From a virus, in IMG/VR virus record IMGVR_UViG_3300037140_000067, positions 1 to 52,429 of that record: a DNA stretch of 52,429 bases; one strand, given 5' to 3'. The notes beneath the pieces are model-generated. The model searched no databases. It saw nothing but the letters and a program-made list of their open reading frames with translations, and had not been told where the DNA came from. Shown here in pieces: positions 10,388-52,429 of this stretch. Positions within the stretch are counted from its first letter, which is position 1; each line of letters opens with the position of its first letter. Position numbers and translations under genes: made by a program.

Positions 10388-12523
10388 ATGTTCGCTGATT
10401 CGGTGATCGAATCCAAACTCGACCTACTCGAAGCCGAGTTTGGGTGGCGTCCAAAGCCCCATTCCATCGAAGAAGTAGACGCTTGGAAAAAGCAGCTTGC
10501 CACGGCCTTTGAGGAAGACTCCAAAGGCAACATCTACATGAAGCGCAAGCTCACCAAGTCAGAGCAGCGATTCATCGAGAATGAGCGCCTGATGGTCAGT
10601 GCGTCGTGCGGCTATTTCCTCACCCGCTACTACTACATCAAAGCCAAGAACCGCATCCTCCGCTTCGTGTTTCGCAGTGGGCAGTGGATTGTGTGGCGCA
10701 TCCTGCAAGAGTTGGACGCGATGGGTGTGTCGAAAGAGCTTCAGGTGCTGAAGGCCCGCAAGCTCGGCATCTCGACCCTCGCGGAAGGCATTATGACGTG
10801 GGGCGCACTCTTCATCCCCGGAGCGGCCTCGCAGATTGGATCTGCCGACGCGCAGAAAACTCAAGTCATGCTCGGTATGATGACGCTGGCCATCGACCAG
10901 CTACCATCATGGCTTCCTCCAACGCAGACGCGCTCGAAAACGAAGTCCGACCGAGCCATGCTGGAGTTCGAGCACATCGGCTCGCTCATCATCGTGCAGC
11001 CGGGTTCGATGATGGGCGGCATGGGACAGGGCACGACGCCGACCATGATCCATTTATCTGAGGTCAGTCAATTTACCAACCCGGTCCAGCAGCTTGACGA
11101 AGGACTGCTCAAGGCGGTCGAGTCCAGCCCCGAGGTTGTCTTCATTCTGGAGTCGACCGGAGACGCCGGCCATCGTTCCGCATGGTGGTGGACGGAGCAG
11201 TGGATTGCAAATCGAGACAATTACTGGCAGGGCGGATCGCGGTTCCTGCCAGTGTTCCTGCCGTGGCACACGACGCCCGAACTTTACCCCGGCGAGCATT
11301 GGCTCAAGAAGTTCCCCATGCCGGAGGGCTTCACTCCGAATCAAGACACCATCGACCACGTAACCCGCGCCGAAGCCTACGTGCGCAACACGGAGATGCT
11401 GAGTCGTGTGATCGGCAAGGATTGGACAATGCCGCTCACCCAGCAGTGGTATTGGCAGTACAACTACCTCGATCACAAGCGGCGGAGGGTCGAAAAGTCA
11501 TGGTTCCGCCAGATGCCGTGCGACGACTACGAGGCTCTTTTGGGCGAGCGTGACAAGGTGTACTCGCAGGATGCGATTGACGCCGTTGCGGACACCGTAG
11601 GCAAGGCCAGCGTCTACATGCTGGCTGGCGACGGCATGGAAGAGAAGCGCGAGCCCGAGGAGGCGCAAATCTGGTATGGCGCTGAGGCTCCCGCGCGCCA
11701 GCGGTTCCACTGGACCACGCCGAAGAAAGACAAAATGGAGTGGATGCTGGTGCCGCTCGCGCCTGTACCTGAGTTGACGTTCGACCCGCTCGAAAAGTTG
11801 CTGATCTGGAAGGAGCCGGAAGAGGGATACGACTACTCGGTTGGCGACGATACCGGGACGGGCGTTGGCGGCGACCGCTTCATCCTGAACGTCACCCGCC
11901 ACGGAACGAACGAGTTCCCCGACGAGCAGGTTGCGGAGTTCGCATCGGACTCGATCCCTACGGCGGAGCAGTACGCATGGATCGCGGCGGTGACGGCCTA
12001 CTATGCGAAGTACATGAATCCGGGGCCGAAGGGACATCCCAAGATTTGCCCTGAGATGCGGCGGAAGTTTGGCGACCTCCCCTACCACCAGACGCAATTG
12101 CTGGGCTTCCGGCGGTGGCATGAGTGGGGGCAGGGGTTCGACCGCAAGACGTTCGAGGATAAGGTTGGCAAGCACGGGCGCATCGGCTGGTTCACGAACG
12201 AGTGGAGCCGTCCGATGCTGCTTTCAGCCTTCCAGTATGCGGTCGAAAACGGCTGGTATGTGGTGCGGTCGAAGTGGCTTCAGGACGAGATGAAAGAGTT
12301 GGAGCAGAAGTTCATGGCGTCGGGCAAGACCCGCGTAGATCACGCATCGGGAAAGCATGACGACCGGGTATTCGCGGCGGCGATGGCGTATTGGACACTG
12401 CATCAGCGCAGTGAAATGATGCAAAGGATGAAATTACGCTATGAGCAGCCCCAAAAGAGTGGGATTATTATTGAGCGAGGGCCAGCGGTGATGACGGTGG
12501 AAATTACGGGGAAAACGCGATGA
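10388..12523 (+). CDS. terL: Terminase large subunit
   Basis: 711 aa. The packaging motor ATPase and nuclease that fills the prohead. ATPase: a Walker A of the deviant terminase type LKARKLGIST (121-130), Walker B MIHLSE (220-225) and coupling motif FILESTG (252-258). Nuclease: YSVGDDTG (483-490) supplies the first catalytic aspartate, and KHDDRVFAAAMAYW (656-669) the last acidic motif, so both domains look intact. The protein is longer than many terminases because of an N-terminal extension and an insert between the domains. It is followed at once (ATGA) by a small gene and then the portal, the usual order. Confidence 0.93.
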   Translation: MFADSVIESKLDLLEAEFGWRPKPHSIEEVDAWKKQLATAFEEDSKGNIYMKRKLTKSEQRFIENERLMVSASCGYFLTRYYYIKAKNRILRFVFRSGQWIVWRILQELDAMGVSKELQVLKARKLGISTLAEGIMTWGALFIPGAASQIGSADAQKTQVMLGMMTLAIDQLPSWLPPTQTRSKTKSDRAMLEFEHIGSLIIVQPGSMMGGMGQGTTPTMIHLSEVSQFTNPVQQLDEGLLKAVESSPEVVFILESTGDAGHRSAWWWTEQWIANRDNYWQGGSRFLPVFLPWHTTPELYPGEHWLKKFPMPEGFTPNQDTIDHVTRAEAYVRNTEMLSRVIGKDWTMPLTQQWYWQYNYLDHKRRRVEKSWFRQMPCDDYEALLGERDKVYSQDAIDAVADTVGKASVYMLAGDGMEEKREPEEAQIWYGAEAPARQRFHWTTPKKDKMEWMLVPLAPVPELTFDPLEKLLIWKEPEEGYDYSVGDDTGTGVGGDRFILNVTRHGTNEFPDEQVAEFASDSIPTAEQYAWIAAVTAYYAKYMNPGPKGHPKICPEMRRKFGDLPYHQTQLLGFRRWHEWGQGFDRKTFEDKVGKHGRIGWFTNEWSRPMLLSAFQYAVENGWYVVRSKWLQDEMKELEQKFMASGKTRVDHASGKHDDRVFAAAMAYWTLHQRSEMMQRMKLRYEQPQKSGIIIERGPAVMTVEITGKTR

Positions 12524-43872: not shown

Positions 43873-44452
43873 GAGACTCCTCCTGCCACGCATGTAGTGC
43901 CATCGCAGCCAGTAATTCCAGCGCATCGTTCCGGTTGGCTGCGCCGTGCTCCATCGCCAAGTCTAGAGCCTCCTCGATCTTTTCCGCCGCCGATTCGTCA
44001 GGGTTGAACCGCAGTGCCCGCTTGTGCTCAATATGCTGGTTGGGGAAGTCCCGCCGGATCGTTCCAACAAACTCCTCCGCGCGTTGCGTCTTGGCCGCTT
44101 CGAGCACGGCTGGCGTCCGGCGTACCCGGCTGCTCAACTGCTTCAACGTGTGGAAGTTCGATGCAGGGATCTGTGCCAGGTCAGCCGCGGGAACGTCCGC
44201 AAGCTCCTCACAGTCGCGCAGGGCCGCGTAGACGACCGAGTATCCACGGGGGGCCGCGTAGCGCACCCACGAGGCGAAGGACGTGCATCCGGGTACGTGC
44301 TTCCAGAGCATTCGTCTCTCGACGGTCAGAGCCATCAATCCGAGACTGGCGTAGCGTAGGGGTTCCGTCTCGTCCCACTCGCGGATGAGGCTGGAGATGA
44401 GGGTCGCGGCTTCGGGGTCGGGAAGGGCGAGGTAGTCCTGCGTGGGGGTCAT
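43832..44452 (-). CDS. Hypothetical helical protein
   Basis: 206 aa. N-terminal half is helical with LRYASLGLMALTVERRMLWK and CTSFASWVRYAAPRGYSVVY, like the ParB-related or plasmid-type helical domain of several phage proteins, then ASNFHTLKQLSSRVRRTPAV and an acidic C-terminus. It might bind DNA but no motif proves it. The start (44452) overlaps the stop of the cysteine-rich gene. Confidence 0.6.
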   Translation of the reverse strand: MTPTQDYLALPDPEAATLISSLIREWDETEPLRYASLGLMALTVERRMLWKHVPGCTSFASWVRYAAPRGYSVVYAALRDCEELADVPAADLAQIPASNFHTLKQLSSRVRRTPAVLEAAKTQRAEEFVGTIRRDFPNQHIEHKRALRFNPDESAAEKIEEALDLAMEHGAANRNDALELLAAMALHAWQEESREQDTSEDLRVVQ

Positions 44453-44640
44453 GCTTCGCCATCCTCGATCATCTGCGCCATCATTTCGGCGGTGTGGCAT
44501 TCAGACCGTAGATGCTCACCCGGCATACAGCACCGTCCGGGGAAGCAGCATCCGGTGTCGTTTTCCTCATCGTCGCGGTCGCATACACACGGGTAGCAAT
44601 AACATTCGTCGCAGTAGTGAACAGGTGGACCCATTACCAT
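44449..44640 (-). CDS. Very cysteine-rich small protein
   Basis: 63 aa with ten cysteines: HYCDECYCYPCVCDRDDEEN, then CCFPGRCC and SEC. Such density implies binding of one or more metal ions. AAGGAG precedes the ATG at 44640. It sits between the primase-type zinc protein and a helical protein in the early block. Function unknown. Confidence 0.6.
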   Translation of the reverse strand: MVMGPPVHYCDECYCYPCVCDRDDEENDTGCCFPGRCCMPGEHLRSECHTAEMMAQMIEDGEA

Positions 44641-45137
44641 CGTCTCTCCTTCGCTACCGCTGGCAGCATCCTGCGAGATAAGCAGTGATCCGCAGCGGCG
44701 ATACGTTCGGTTGTGGCTCTCAAGATACCTTCCCAAATGCGGTTAGGTTTGTTCGATAAAACGATAGCGCAAGCGGCGATCACTGTCACATCCTTGTCAC
44801 GGTCCTCGCGGGTGTAGCCGTTCTCGATGAAGCGGAGTATCCACGTCCCAATGCGGAGTTCGCTGGCCCTCTTCTCTGCGACCTCCCGCTGGCGTTGGGC
44901 CTCCCGCCACTCCTTCGGGTCACGCTTGGCGAACAGCGTATCCTTCCACGTTAGCCCTACCGCAGCCAGCACGTCGTCAGACTCGCACCCTGCGAAACAG
45001 TGGACGGTGGAGCGCTCGTCATCGGCGTAGATGGCCAGCGTGAGGCTCTTGCCCTTATGGACTGGGCATCGGGCCCTCCACGCCTTGCCCTCGCGCCGGG
45101 GGCGGTCGAACATGCGGGCTAGGGCTTCCGTGGTCAT
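44634..45137 (-). CDS. CHC2-type primase zinc-binding protein without catalytic domain
   Basis: 167 aa. RARCPVHKGKSLTLAIYADD and STVHCFAGCESDDVLAAVGL reproduce the DnaG-type zinc-binding domain (C24, H27, C47, C51) that recognises the template. The rest (REAQRQREVAEKRASELRIG and a short helical end) lacks any Toprim or polymerase motif, and no Toprim gene was seen elsewhere. It may recruit the host primase or another phage protein. It overlaps the helicase-methyltransferase gene by 4 bases. Confidence 0.8.
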   Translation of the reverse strand: MTTEALARMFDRPRREGKAWRARCPVHKGKSLTLAIYADDERSTVHCFAGCESDDVLAAVGLTWKDTLFAKRDPKEWREAQRQREVAEKRASELRIGTWILRFIENGYTREDRDKDVTVIAACAIVLSNKPNRIWEGILRATTERIAAADHCLSRRMLPAVAKERRW

Positions 45138-47461
45138 ATCTCCACCGAATCCACGTCCTCTATCTCAACAGGTTCGTCGTCCGCACCCGCAAACAAACCA
45201 GTGGATGCGCTAAGGGCCGATGCGAGGTTCTTGTGCGCCTGACGGAAGTAAGATGGCTTGAGTTCGGACCCGATGAACTTGCGGCCCATCTCCAAAGCCA
45301 CGAAACCCTCCGAACCGATGCCCGCGAACGGACTCCAAACCGTATCGCCGGGGTTCGTCCACAGCTTCACCGCCCTGCGAATGACTTCCAATTGCAGCGG
45401 GCAGATGTGGCGTTCGTCCTCATGCTCGCGGGCGGAACGATATTGCAGCGTGTCCGATGGGTTGATGTCCATCCACACCGGCGAGGCGTAGTTCTGCCAC
45501 AACTCGACTGGGAACTCTTCCTTCGTGTGCGCGATAGCCTCCGGGTTCTCTCCCGGCTTGCGCATGGTCACAAGGTAGTCAGGCACGCCCTGGCGACTCA
45601 TGGCGGAGTCTTTGCGGATGGTCTTGTGCAACAGGCCCAGAGCCTTCGTGCGCTGCATGGCCGTCACCGGGTCTTTCCAGATGCAGACCTCGGAATGGTA
45701 GATGAAGCCAACATCCTCATACGCGCGGATGATCTCGCCCCGGAAGTCGCGGATGCCGATCACTCCGTCCCGCACCTTCGATGTGGGCAGGTTCATGCAG
45801 TGGATGGAGACGAGGCGACCCGGCATCATCACCCGGTACGACTCTTTGATGAGGAACTTGTAATGCTCCCAAAACTCGTCATGCGTCCGGCTGTTGCCCA
45901 TGTCGCGTTCGCTGGAGGAGTAGGTGTAGAGCGATGCGAACGGCGGCGAGAATACCGAATAGTGGACGGAGTTACTCGGCAACTCTTCGGCCAAGTCGAC
46001 GCAATCGGCAAGGTGAATCGTCCAGTTCTCCGAAGTCTCCACATTGCGCTCATAGACGGACTGTTCGCGCACCGTCCCCCGCAAGTGCATCCGGGTCAAG
46101 TCCTGCATGTTCGCTACCATCTCGTCGGCCATGTGTGTTGCCTCCTTTTCCTTGCGCTTCAAGTTCTCAAGTACGTTGCCTTCGGTCGATGCTGCGATGA
46201 TGTGGACGTGGACGGGGTTCTTTTGCCCGAAGCGCCACGACCGGCGCACCGCCTGATAGAACATCTCCCATGAATCATTGACGCCCACAAAGACCTGATG
46301 CGAGCAGTTCTGGAGATTCATCCCGTAACCAAACATCCGGGCCTTAGTCGAGAGCGCATGTATCTCGTCATTGCAGAACGCAATCGCCGCCTCGATCTTG
46401 AACTCGTCGGTGTCAGTTCCGGTAACTTCGATGCACTTCGGAACGCCCGCGGCGATGGCTTTCGACTCATCATTCAGGTTGCTCCACAACAGCCACGTCT
46501 CGGCAGGTTCCTCCGCAACGATGTCAATCGCCGCTTGCACTCGCTCATTCACCGATGAGCGACGGGCCGCAAGCCGTTCGCCCAACGACTCCGCAGGCAT
46601 GGCGAAGAGGAACCCTTCGCTTGGGGTGGAGACTTCCAAGACGTGCTCATGGTAGACCAGCGGCGGAAGGATGAACATGCTATCGTCATGGCCTATGTCG
46701 CTCGGCTTGTTCATCGACACAGCCCACGTGCATACCCACTTCCAGAAGTCTTTCCGCGCATGGCCTTTGAGCCGCCACTTCTGCGTCTCGCCACCATCAT
46801 GCACGAAGAACGTGGATAGCATCTCCGTGGCCGTCATCACGCCCAGGAACTCCGCATGGTTGCCAAGCTCCATGTAATCGTTCGGGGCCGGTGTGGCCGT
46901 CGCAGCGAGCCGGTACGGGGTATCGCGGAACGCCTCAATCAGAGCGGAGCGGGTAGTCCCATCGAACGATTTCAGGATGCTCGACTCGTCCAGAACGATG
47001 CCATCGAACGCGGTAGGGTCGAACTTGGCTAACCGCTCATAGTTGGTGACGTTCACCCCGCGAGTCGATTCCTTCATCTCGCGGCAGTAGTGGATCTCGA
47101 CCCCGAACTTATCCGCCTCACGGACGGTCTGACGGGCGACCGCGAGCGGAGCCAGAACGAGCACAGCGCCCCCAGTATGCTCCGCCACGACCCGAGCCCA
47201 CTCCAATTCGATGAGCGTCTTGCCGAGCCCGGTACCGAGGAATGCAGCGGCCTTGCCAAGTCGCAGCGCCCATCCGGTCACGTCGCGTTGGTGGGGGAAC
47301 ATCGCCGGGTGGAGCGGGGGGATCGTGGTAAGTCCCGCCGCATGGCATCGGATTGACTTCGCCGCGATGAACTCCGCGTACTTGTCCCGATGCTCCAAGA
47401 ACTCTGGACCCATCACCACGCCGGGATCAAAATGAACCGGCTCGCCATCTATGATTTTCAT
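45134..47461 (-). CDS. Superfamily 2 helicase fused to DNA methyltransferase
   Basis: 775 aa. N-terminal SNF2-like ATPase: Walker A LGTGLGKT (75-82), LDES (157-160) as the DExx box, ATATPAPND (187-195), and QAVRRSWRFGQ (403-413) as motif VI. C-terminal beta-class N6-adenine or N4-cytosine methyltransferase: SPPF (505-508) before the SAM site PFAGIGSEGFVALEMGRKFI (711-730). Both halves look complete. The fusion recalls DarB of P1, which protects injected DNA, and restriction-modification translocases. It would methylate phage DNA while moving along it. Followed by a separate helicase gene, with ATGA-type overlap. Confidence 0.85.
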   Translation of the reverse strand: MKIIDGEPVHFDPGVVMGPEFLEHRDKYAEFIAAKSIRCHAAGLTTIPPLHPAMFPHQRDVTGWALRLGKAAAFLGTGLGKTLIELEWARVVAEHTGGAVLVLAPLAVARQTVREADKFGVEIHYCREMKESTRGVNVTNYERLAKFDPTAFDGIVLDESSILKSFDGTTRSALIEAFRDTPYRLAATATPAPNDYMELGNHAEFLGVMTATEMLSTFFVHDGGETQKWRLKGHARKDFWKWVCTWAVSMNKPSDIGHDDSMFILPPLVYHEHVLEVSTPSEGFLFAMPAESLGERLAARRSSVNERVQAAIDIVAEEPAETWLLWSNLNDESKAIAAGVPKCIEVTGTDTDEFKIEAAIAFCNDEIHALSTKARMFGYGMNLQNCSHQVFVGVNDSWEMFYQAVRRSWRFGQKNPVHVHIIAASTEGNVLENLKRKEKEATHMADEMVANMQDLTRMHLRGTVREQSVYERNVETSENWTIHLADCVDLAEELPSNSVHYSVFSPPFASLYTYSSSERDMGNSRTHDEFWEHYKFLIKESYRVMMPGRLVSIHCMNLPTSKVRDGVIGIRDFRGEIIRAYEDVGFIYHSEVCIWKDPVTAMQRTKALGLLHKTIRKDSAMSRQGVPDYLVTMRKPGENPEAIAHTKEEFPVELWQNYASPVWMDINPSDTLQYRSAREHEDERHICPLQLEVIRRAVKLWTNPGDTVWSPFAGIGSEGFVALEMGRKFIGSELKPSYFRQAHKNLASALSASTGLFAGADDEPVEIEDVDSVEI

Positions 47462-49086
47462 GCTTGCCTCCGTTGAAAATGGACATCTAAAGCCGCCGAA
47501 ACCTGCCCACGGGTAGCCCCGTTCGGGATGGGGATGCGGAGTTTATGGCAGAGGGCTATCTGCTTCTCGCTCGGCCCCGTCTGCCGCCAGTGCGAGTCCC
47601 GCATGAGTACCGCCTTGGGAAGCACGCCGGAATCGACCACCAACTTATCCCCGATGTTGAACGCTCCGGCCAGGTTCTGCGCCTGAATCTCTACGAGCCT
47701 CCCTGCCACGAATCCGCGTACCCACCACTCGCCCAGCAGGTCGGCGGACAGCGTGACCCGCTCGCGGCCTACGGGCAGCGTGTAGGCGTCGCCCTGCTTC
47801 GTCCATGCCAGTTCAGTGAGCCGTGAGACTTCGGGCGGGTAGCTCACCTTGAACAGCGAGATATTCTCAGCCATCGTCTTCAGTTCGTCGAGATTGCGGA
47901 GGTCGGCAACGTTGGCGGTGGGGAACTCTGCCGCGATGCGCTCCAACTGCTCCCGCGCCTTGGTAAACCGCTCGCCTTTGAGGTCCAAATCCTTCGGCAA
48001 TCCAAGCAGGCTGGAGACGTTGCATAGGTCGTGGCGCTTGCTCGAATCGCACACGTCCAGCACGAGCAAATCATCTTTACCGTCCGCAATCCGGGTTCCC
48101 CGGCCTACCTCCTGGGCGTAGCGTACGAAGCTCTTGCGTGGTGCTGCCAGCACGATGCATGACACCTTCGGATCGTCGTAGCCTATGCCAAGCAACTGAG
48201 CGCAGCAGATGACGGGGTACGTCCCTGCCTTGTGCGCGTCGATCTTCGCTTGGCGGTCGGGATCTTCGCCCCAGACTGCTTTCGCGCCGATACTGTGAGC
48301 CTCGAACGTGGCCGCAAGGTCGAGCGCGTGCTGCACGTTGGCGGTGAAGCAGATGGTGCGGCGCTGCCATGCATGCTTCGCCCATTCCTTGACGACGATG
48401 GCGTTACGCTCGGGCGTGTTGACGGCGGTAGCAAGCTCGCCCTCGGCAAACTCTCCCATGCGAACGTGTACGCCATCGAGGTTGGCTTTGCCTGATACGC
48501 GCATTGCCCGAATATCGCAGAGCCATCCTGTCTCAATACCCTTGCGGATGTCCATGTCGAACACGATCTCGTCGAAGAGGTGCTTCAGCCCCTGGCCGTC
48601 GTTCCGGTTGGGCGTGGCGGTGATGCCAAGGAATAGCGTCTTGGTGCGCGTGCGGTCGAGCAGCCCAAAGTAGTCGTAGACGCGCTTGAACGAGTCGGCC
48701 ATACCGATGTGCGCCTCATCTTGGATGATGGCGTCGAACTCGTCGGGCTGGAACTTCTTGATGCGGTCAGAACCCTTGCGCCCAAGCGTCGGGATGGAGG
48801 CGATTACGAACTGATCGAGCGGCCCGGAGGTCTGCCCCGCCATCTCCGTTCCCACCCACGCGCCGGGGTTCCACGCATGGAACGCCTTAGCCGCTTGCTG
48901 CGCGAGTTGATCCATGTGGACGGCAAACATCACCTTGCCGGTAAAGCCGTGGTTGCGGCGCAGGTTGGCGGCGATGGCAGTTTTTCCGGTGCCGGTTGCC
49001 ATCACTGCCAACTGGTTCAGCACGCCTCGGCTGAGCGCGGCCTTGGACCGGGTTAGGCAGTCGGACTGGTAATCTCTAAGCTGCAC
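47458..49086 (-). CDS. DEAH-box superfamily 2 DNA helicase
   Basis: 542 aa, GTG start. Walker A MATGTGKT (29-36), DEAH (123-126), GITATPNRNDGQG as motif III and YAQEVGRGTR as motif VI make a full SF2 core. The C-terminal 150 residues include a short SAP-like or small winged segment (SEKQIALCHKLRIPIPNGAT). Such helicases act in phage branch migration, recombination-dependent replication or repair, in step with the ERF protein. It directly precedes the methyltransferase fusion in the operon. Confidence 0.85.
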   Translation of the reverse strand: MQLRDYQSDCLTRSKAALSRGVLNQLAVMATGTGKTAIAANLRRNHGFTGKVMFAVHMDQLAQQAAKAFHAWNPGAWVGTEMAGQTSGPLDQFVIASIPTLGRKGSDRIKKFQPDEFDAIIQDEAHIGMADSFKRVYDYFGLLDRTRTKTLFLGITATPNRNDGQGLKHLFDEIVFDMDIRKGIETGWLCDIRAMRVSGKANLDGVHVRMGEFAEGELATAVNTPERNAIVVKEWAKHAWQRRTICFTANVQHALDLAATFEAHSIGAKAVWGEDPDRQAKIDAHKAGTYPVICCAQLLGIGYDDPKVSCIVLAAPRKSFVRYAQEVGRGTRIADGKDDLLVLDVCDSSKRHDLCNVSSLLGLPKDLDLKGERFTKAREQLERIAAEFPTANVADLRNLDELKTMAENISLFKVSYPPEVSRLTELAWTKQGDAYTLPVGRERVTLSADLLGEWWVRGFVAGRLVEIQAQNLAGAFNIGDKLVVDSGVLPKAVLMRDSHWRQTGPSEKQIALCHKLRIPIPNGATRGQVSAALDVHFQRRQA

Positions 49087-50492: not shown

Positions 50493-50655
50493 ATAATCCT
50501 TTCTCCTTGTTGGCCGTATAGCGACGGCGTTTGGCTTCCTCTGCCGCGATGCGCTTGAACTCGGGAGTCTCAACCCGCATCAGCGGCACAATGAAGCGAT
50601 TGAACGATTCGAGACTGCAACACTCGACGATAAGCTGCCTCCAGACGTGTTCCAT
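50473..50655 (-). CDS. Hypothetical small protein
   Basis: 60 aa. Helical, with an aromatic first half (MEHVWRQLIVECCSLESFNR) and basic second half (EFKRIAAEEAKRRRYTANKE). It starts on the last base of the coiled-coil gene's stop codon. Function unknown. Confidence 0.6.
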   Translation of the reverse strand: MEHVWRQLIVECCSLESFNRFIVPLMRVETPEFKRIAAEEAKRRRYTANKEKGLYELANR

Positions 50656-51689
50656 CAGTAGATGATCTTCGTGTGTGGGATCTTGCCCTGGGCGATGGCC
50701 ACGACGAGCTTCTTTGCATTAGCATCGGAGATGCCCAATGCAACGACGGCTGCTATCGCCACCCGGTAAATCTCAGTCTTGTGTGCGGTGCTGTCCTCTC
50801 TGGCTTTGGTAGCGGCATCCTCCGCCGCCTTCGCGTCCGCTGTCCGCTTCTGCTCGGCTGCCACGGCGCGTTCCGCTGCATCCTTGGCATCCTGCTCGGC
50901 TTTGACTGCGCGAGCCTCGGCTGCCTCGGTGTCGCGTTTGGCCTTCGCCTCGCGCTCTGCGGTATCCCGCTCGGCCTTCTCGGTCGCTTCGCGTGCTACC
51001 CGCTCGTCGCGTTCGGCCTGCTCCTTTGCCTGGCGATCCTTAGCCTCTTTGGACTCGCGGACGATGCGTTCGGCCTCCAGTTTTTTGAAGGCAACCTGCT
51101 GCTCCTCGTGATTCTTTGTCTCTGCAAGAATTTTGCTGAGACGCATGGAGGACGCATCGTTCGACGTGCCAAATCGTTCGGCAAACTCTTCCCAATTGCG
51201 TAGCGCAAACTCGTCGAGCTTGGCAATGCGGCTCTCGATCTCCGCGACAGTGGCCCCGAAAGGTACGTTGCTGAGTTCGATAACATCTTTCAACGCCTGT
51301 TCGTGAGCCTCAACGCGGGCCTTGACTGCTTCCTCGTAGTCCGTGAGGGGCTTGCGGGCTTGATCGCGTAGAGCGGTAAGCGCTTCCTTCATCCGCTTGC
51401 GCTCGGCGTCGATGTCCGTCGCCTTGCGCTTGATGTCCATGCTGAGATTCTTCCCGTAGTCCTCCAGCCGTGCCATCGAACTGGAAACCTTGCGGGCAAG
51501 AGAAGCAATCGCCTTGCGTCCCTTTTCGCAAGAGATGTCGGGCTGAAACTGCTCCACCTCTTTGCGGATCAGGCTGATGATTTTGTCAAGGCCGTTCGGA
51601 ACGAACAGTTCCGACGCCTTCTCTTCTGGGGGAATGATTTCCCCGATGGGTGTTCCAACGATGATTTCGTCTTCGATTATGCCGTTCAT
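50655..51689 (-). CDS. ERF-linked coiled-coil protein, copy B (complete)
   Basis: 344 aa. MNGIIEDEIIVGTPIGEIIP at the N-terminus, helical region from about residue 25 (LDKIISLIRKEVEQFQPDIS), a central segment that differs strongly from copy A (residues about 163-197: here EFAERFGTSNDASSMRLSKI), then a 120-residue coiled coil (EQAERDERVAREATEKAERD) and a small folded end (VALGISDANAKKLVVAIAQG). Two bases after the ERF stop, AGGAGG before ATG. A partner of ERF is suggested by linkage only. Confidence 0.8.
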   Translation of the reverse strand: MNGIIEDEIIVGTPIGEIIPPEEKASELFVPNGLDKIISLIRKEVEQFQPDISCEKGRKAIASLARKVSSSMARLEDYGKNLSMDIKRKATDIDAERKRMKEALTALRDQARKPLTDYEEAVKARVEAHEQALKDVIELSNVPFGATVAEIESRIAKLDEFALRNWEEFAERFGTSNDASSMRLSKILAETKNHEEQQVAFKKLEAERIVRESKEAKDRQAKEQAERDERVAREATEKAERDTAEREAKAKRDTEAAEARAVKAEQDAKDAAERAVAAEQKRTADAKAAEDAATKAREDSTAHKTEIYRVAIAAVVALGISDANAKKLVVAIAQGKIPHTKIIY

Positions 51690-52429
51690 GGCTACGCCTC
51701 CTGAGCGTTTGCGGTGGTTATCATGCTGTCGAGTTGCGTCTTGATTGCGGTCCAGTCGTGGCCCTTGCTCTCGCAGAACTTCATCTGCTCGTCGGGTGTC
51801 CAGTCGAGCATGGCAAAAGCTGCCTTGACATCTTGGGGCATGAGCGGGGCTTTGAACCAATCGAGGATGGCGCTGTACTTCCGGGCGGGGATGAGGCTGC
51901 CGGCCTTTTGTCCGACAAACTCATAGAGTTGCGCGGCCTTACGCTCGGTGCGCTTCAGTTCTTCCTTGATGTGCGCGGCCTCCTCGTTAGTGATGGGGGT
52001 AGCGTCTTCCAGGACTGCGGCGCGAGATGCGGCCTCAGTGCGTTGCTGGGCTCCAGTAAGGTCTTTGCCGCGTTGTGCTGCGTTCTTGGATACCTGGGCA
52101 TCCTCGTTCTCTTCTGGCGCAACACCAGCCAACCCGCACAGTCCTTGCCGACGCGCATACGAGTGTTCCGCGCCGAATGTCTGGGGATCATTGTTCGGAC
52201 CGAGTGGGATGCCGTCATCGTTTGCCCACTGGCCGGACGAGTGGTGCAGTTCGGTTACGAGATACATCCGGCCTTCAACACGACGGATTGGTTGGCGTAC
52301 GCAGATCTCTTCGGCAGTGAGGCACGGAAGAATGGCGGTTAGCACGTCGGCAAGATCGGCGTAGGCATAGTCGTAACTGTATTCCTTGCCGCTGCCCTTA
52401 GCTGTCCCTTTGACGGTGGCCTTCCTGGT
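50855..52429. repeat. Diverged direct repeat, copy B (right end)
   Basis: Collinear with 1-1575 at an offset of 50,854, no indels. Together the pair defines the closure of the map. See copy A for the pattern of identity. Confidence 0.9.
51692..52429 (-). CDS. ERF-family annealing protein, copy B (5' end cut by window edge)
   Basis: Residues 29-273 of the same ERF protein as 838-1659; the window ends before its start. All family motifs are present. In the C-terminal 217 residues I see three substitutions relative to copy A: Ala for Thr in NEEA(A/T)HIKE, Ala for Pro in GQK(A/P)GSL and Ala for Thr in WFK(A/T)PLM. Many DNA differences between the copies are silent. Confidence 0.8.
   Translation of the reverse strand, partial: TRKATVKGTAKGSGKEYSYDYAYADLADVLTAILPCLTAEEICVRQPIRRVEGRMYLVTELHHSSGQWANDDGIPLGPNNDPQTFGAEHSYARRQGLCGLAGVAPEENEDAQVSKNAAQRGKDLTGAQQRTEAASRAAVLEDATPITNEEAAHIKEELKRTERKAAQLYEFVGQKAGSLIPARKYSAILDWFKAPLMPQDVKAAFAMLDWTPDEQMKFCESKGHDWTAIKTQLDSMITTANAQEA

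Follow-up and report, generated by a model that had tools for sequence, protein, structure and literature searches.

A diverged 1,575-bp end repeat in a virus contig is best read as a second allele added where a circular 50,854-bp map closes

The DNA analysed here (the window) is the whole of IMG/VR virus record IMGVR_UViG_3300037140_000067, 52,429 nucleotides in length, so that base 1 and base 52429 are the ends of the assembled contig. We propose that this contig is very probably a circular (or circularly permuted) map of 50,854 bp, followed by 1,575 bp of a second allele of a locus encoding a PHROG_1376-family protein and an ERF-family single-strand annealing protein. Judged from the sequence, the duplicate is almost certainly a second allele added when the circular map was closed, and not a real feature of the genome.

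Pairwise alignment of positions 1-1575 (allele A, at the left contig end) with positions 50855-52429 (allele B, at the right end) gave 91.2% identity, with 138 mismatches in 1575 bases and zero indels; at 1575 bases, 91% identity and a score of 2223 bits, a chance origin of the match is excluded. The first 127 bases are exact in both copies (1-127 and 50855-50981), with the first mismatch at position 128, and this 127-base prefix is found only once more in the window, at 50855. The original prediction, that the end copies are collinear and free of indels and that substitutions set in after an exact stretch of 127 bases, is thus confirmed. The last 86 bases of the overlap (1490-1575) are also identical between the copies, the longest other tract common to both alleles is 103 bases (804-906), and across 722-906 there is a single mismatch in 185 bases, whereas at 229-328 the alleles differ at about half of the positions. 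There is no exact suffix/prefix match between the window ends, and no other direct or inverted repeats of at least 60 bases were found in 1576-50854.

Many phages have terminal repeats of about 1,575 bp, and by its length the repeat could represent the redundant termini of a phage genome packaged as linear DNA. Redundant ends of that kind should be identical, because they are copied from one concatemer, whereas the two ends of the window carry 138 differences in 1575 positions and each interrupts a gene. We agree with the earlier argument that true terminal redundancy would have left identical ends, and at 91.2% identity we regard this explanation as scarcely credible.

Two minus-strand genes occupy the locus. 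The first (PHROGs match 2.9e-62) belongs to the PHROG_1376 family, whose function is unknown; its allele B is complete at 50655-51689 and encodes 344 amino acids, and its allele A, at 2-835, is cut at base 1. The second is the ERF gene, complete in allele A at 838-1656 (about 272 amino acids; Pfam PF04404, 1.3e-12; PHROG_2324, 6.4e-24) and cut in allele B (51692-52429) by the contig end at 52429, so that its first 27 codons are missing. Codon changes between the ERF alleles comprise 35 silent and 3 replacement changes, bearing out the claim that changes in this gene are mostly silent, and those between the PHROG_1376 gene alleles comprise 56 silent and 23 replacement changes. Synonymous divergence varies strongly by segment: dS is 0 in the first 127 bases, rises to 0.58 at 128-228 and approaches saturation at 229-328 (where dN is about 0.5); it is then 0.61 at 329-721, 0.04 at 722-835, 0.28 in the ERF gene as far as 1489, and again 0 in the final 86 bases. 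As dS is well above dN between the copies, the pair looks like two functioning alleles with a mosaic history. Separately, the segment at 229-328 of the PHROG_1376 gene carries many amino-acid changes, whereas its flanks change mostly silently, and it is possible that it represents an imported segment or a variable linker.

With synonymous divergence so patchy, the source of allele B may be something other than a whole-genome sister strain. It could instead derive from a different phage, or from a recombinant, that shares only the recombination module, in which case the assembly mechanism would be the same with no whole-genome sister strain behind it. A patchwork of dS values running from 0 to saturation is what would be expected of mosaic phages; however, strains within a single phage species normally diverge in patches as well, at least 127 bases are common to both paths upstream of the point where they part, and the alleles contain no indels. 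On balance we consider this origin of allele B unlikely.

Closing the map at 50,854 bp supports a single locus. When position 50854 is joined to position 1, the cut PHROG_1376 gene of allele A reads in frame into 50854-50655 and yields a protein of 344 residues, and the ERF gene of allele B reads in frame into 1576-1656 and yields a complete protein of 272 residues. The main genes on either side of the closure are all on the minus strand, and their block on the right (from about 43.8 kb) runs on into the block on the left (to about 3.8 kb). If 52429 is instead joined directly to 1, one PHROG_1376 gene shifts frame and soon runs into a stop beyond the joint, and the first 27 codons are missing from one of the ERF genes.

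A relative found in a terminase scan is consistent with the same arrangement. This contig, G001 (IMGVR_UViG_3300036790_000037, 50,161 bp), has a terminase 76% identical to that of the window and is collinear with much of it. It contains a single PHROG_1376 homologue (45302-46315, 45% identical), with a distant ERF-family protein next after it (46315-47202; PF04404, 8.6e-11). The flanks of its locus correspond to the two ends of the window, 44191-44323 to about 50.5 kb and 47352-47771 to 1.7-2.1 kb, and since these homologues enclose the locus, the neighbours found at the right and left ends of the window are joined there by one locus copy. The reading of G001 as lacking an ERF gene was considered and rejected, as the distant ERF-family protein occupies the same slot. 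Both ends of the G001 contig (L022, 1-270, and the end of L024) lie in one array of 27-base tandem repeats, with units like GCCGGAGGACGCCGCCTTGCTGGAGTC, and for this reason its own closure and true length are uncertain. We also observed that G001 carries a YqaJ-type exonuclease gene (44318-44965, that is L024 10819-11466; PF09588, 3.4e-26) beside its PHROG_1376 and ERF-family genes; at the matching place in the window no YqaJ-type exonuclease was recognised and the sequence runs straight on. A further relative, the contig G004 (48,501 bp), has a helicase in common with the window and no match to the PHROG_1376/ERF locus.

With the closure supported in this way, both by repair of the two cut genes and by a relative in which one locus copy spans the closure, it becomes very improbable that the locus is truly duplicated, in tandem or dispersed, within one phage genome and that its copies have since diverged. 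Both copies do sit on one assembled contig, and nothing in the sequence alone forbids two of them, but with a direct joint each gene is left with one broken copy and G001 has one locus copy, and the tandem duplication raised earlier as the alternative was not borne out on these grounds. The duplicate would moreover have to begin at precisely base 1 of the contig, and its exact tract would have to be 127 bases long, no more and no fewer; the same anatomy is seen in contigs of single-copy circular gokushoviruses (below). Were the duplication real, gene conversion between the copies would explain the patches of identity; that the phage truly carries two diverged copies of ERF and PHROG_1376, perhaps exchanging segments in this manner, seems to us equally improbable.

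The preferred explanation, a second allele appended at closure, places the origin of the repeat in the assembly graph. The recipe reported for JGI metagenomes is metaSPAdes at -k 33,55,77,99,127, for which the largest k is 127 (PMC11584781), and metaSPAdes leaves end sequences of maxK length at breakpoints (PMC10914622); strain variants are also well described as branches in phage assembly graphs (PMC10563150). A literature search on 127-bp terminal repeats found no paper stating them outright. On this basis the sample would have contained allele-B DNA, whose likeliest source is a sister strain of the same phage present alongside it, and the graph would fork where the final 127 shared bases end. 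The assembler would then have written out the loop from the start vertex, round the genome and to the start vertex again, and the contig would have run on into branch B until that branch ended.

We modelled this with a toy forward-strand de Bruijn graph, built at several values of k from the circular sequence 1-50854 and a branch entering from 3 kb upstream and passing through allele B. At k=127 the graph resolves into two unitigs of 50,981 and 1,575 bases, whose join is the window letter for letter; the branching k-mer is the 127-base stretch at the contig start. The graphs at k=77, 99 and 141 do not reproduce the window: the 103-base stretch common to both alleles at 804-906 merges them at k=77 and k=99, and at k=141 the contig start would be at 50841. 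A fork at k=127 also requires that the alleles share no internal stretch of at least 127 bases, and the longest is 103. Because the graph was given the end of allele B in advance, the model tests the start and structure of the contig and not its right-hand end. That end extends only 86 identical bases beyond the final mismatch, and B would need 41 more to reach the 127 at which it could rejoin A. Branch B must therefore stop for some other reason, such as trimming, an additional variant or low depth, and the simplest bubble does not account for the right-hand contig end. A closed bubble is what would be expected of the simplest case and is not required for a fork, and B is an open branch.

Exact ends of this length occur in other contigs. 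The last 127 bases of G001 recur exactly inside the tandem repeat at its contig start, 127 being the longest match, and an unrelated 164-kb record (G019) has an exact 127-base end repeat. In G008 (L040/L041, 61,419 bp) the first 126 bases recur 845 bases before the end, with full divergence after about 179 bases, making it another contig with a fork-like end.

The genomes of gokushovirus-like phages are circles of about 4.4 kb, and for this reason overlaps between the ends of their contigs are assembly products. We used 79 full-length gokushovirus-like contigs from IMG/VR metagenomes as a control set, accepting overlaps of at least 25 bases at above 88% identity. An end overlap was found in 46 of the 79, with a median closed length of 4388, and in 20 of the 79 the overlap was imperfect, as in L103 (627 bp, 91.5%), L085 (677 bp, 96.3%), L072 (347 bp, 93.4%) and L066 (314 bp, 93.9%). 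The exact end match was 127 bases long in four of the 79 contigs, and lengths of 98-99, 121-123 and others also occur, so that several assembly settings, 127 among them, are represented in the IMG/VR collection; since most of the exact matches are not 127 long, the k of the sample from which the window came is a value that we infer. Taken with the graph, the closure, G001 and the 127-base ends in other contigs, this control supports the original prediction that two alleles meet at a k=127 vertex.

The proposed structure can be compared with three known systems. It resembles the maxK end overlaps left by metaSPAdes and MEGAHIT and described with COBRA (PMC10914622), in which an exact stretch of one k-mer stands at a contig end where paths fork, although in the window the stretch recurs 1,575 bases inside the contig and not at its other end, because the contig continued into the second allele. 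As in the strain bubbles of phage graphs described with Phables (PMC10563150), variant genomes would share most of the graph and branch at diverged modules; unlike those, the branch in the window is appended to the main contig, where it would otherwise be dropped or reported apart, and it ends before rejoining. Finally, as with the direct terminal repeats of circular IMG/VR contigs, the map closes through a repeated stretch, but the overlap of the window diverges after 127 bases, and the window would not be recognised as circular by looking for exact repeats at its ends.

The phage itself belongs to a poorly described group, since the large structural-looking genes scanned in 13007-42284 gave no PHROGs or Pfam match and the terminase (10388-12523) matches, among named phages, only the Tunturiibacter phages Tunturi_1 and Tunturi_2, at 30% identity. 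A megablast search of window positions 1-24000 against named phages gave no match, a scan of viral contigs based on ERF found no relative, and an exact 41-base search of viral contigs for the shared start of the locus gave no match, with the window itself not returned either, as happens where its own record and close kin are masked. The terminase found no relative among prokaryote genomes, which leaves the phage without a hint of its host. Elsewhere in the window, at 45134-49086, a gene for a fusion of a helicase and a DNA methyltransferase (775 amino acids) lies adjacent to one for a second helicase (542 amino acids), the two overlapping by 4 bases; G001 seems to lack the helicase-methyltransferase gene and has an HNH-like gene in that place.

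In practical use, the contig is best handled as a complete 50,854-bp circular map that carries an allelic overhang of 1,575 bp, and not as a genome with two recombinase loci. Moreover, the 20 of 79 gokushovirus-like contigs with imperfect end overlaps suggest that a fair proportion of the contigs in IMG/VR close through imperfect overlaps, which exact end-repeat searches would miss.
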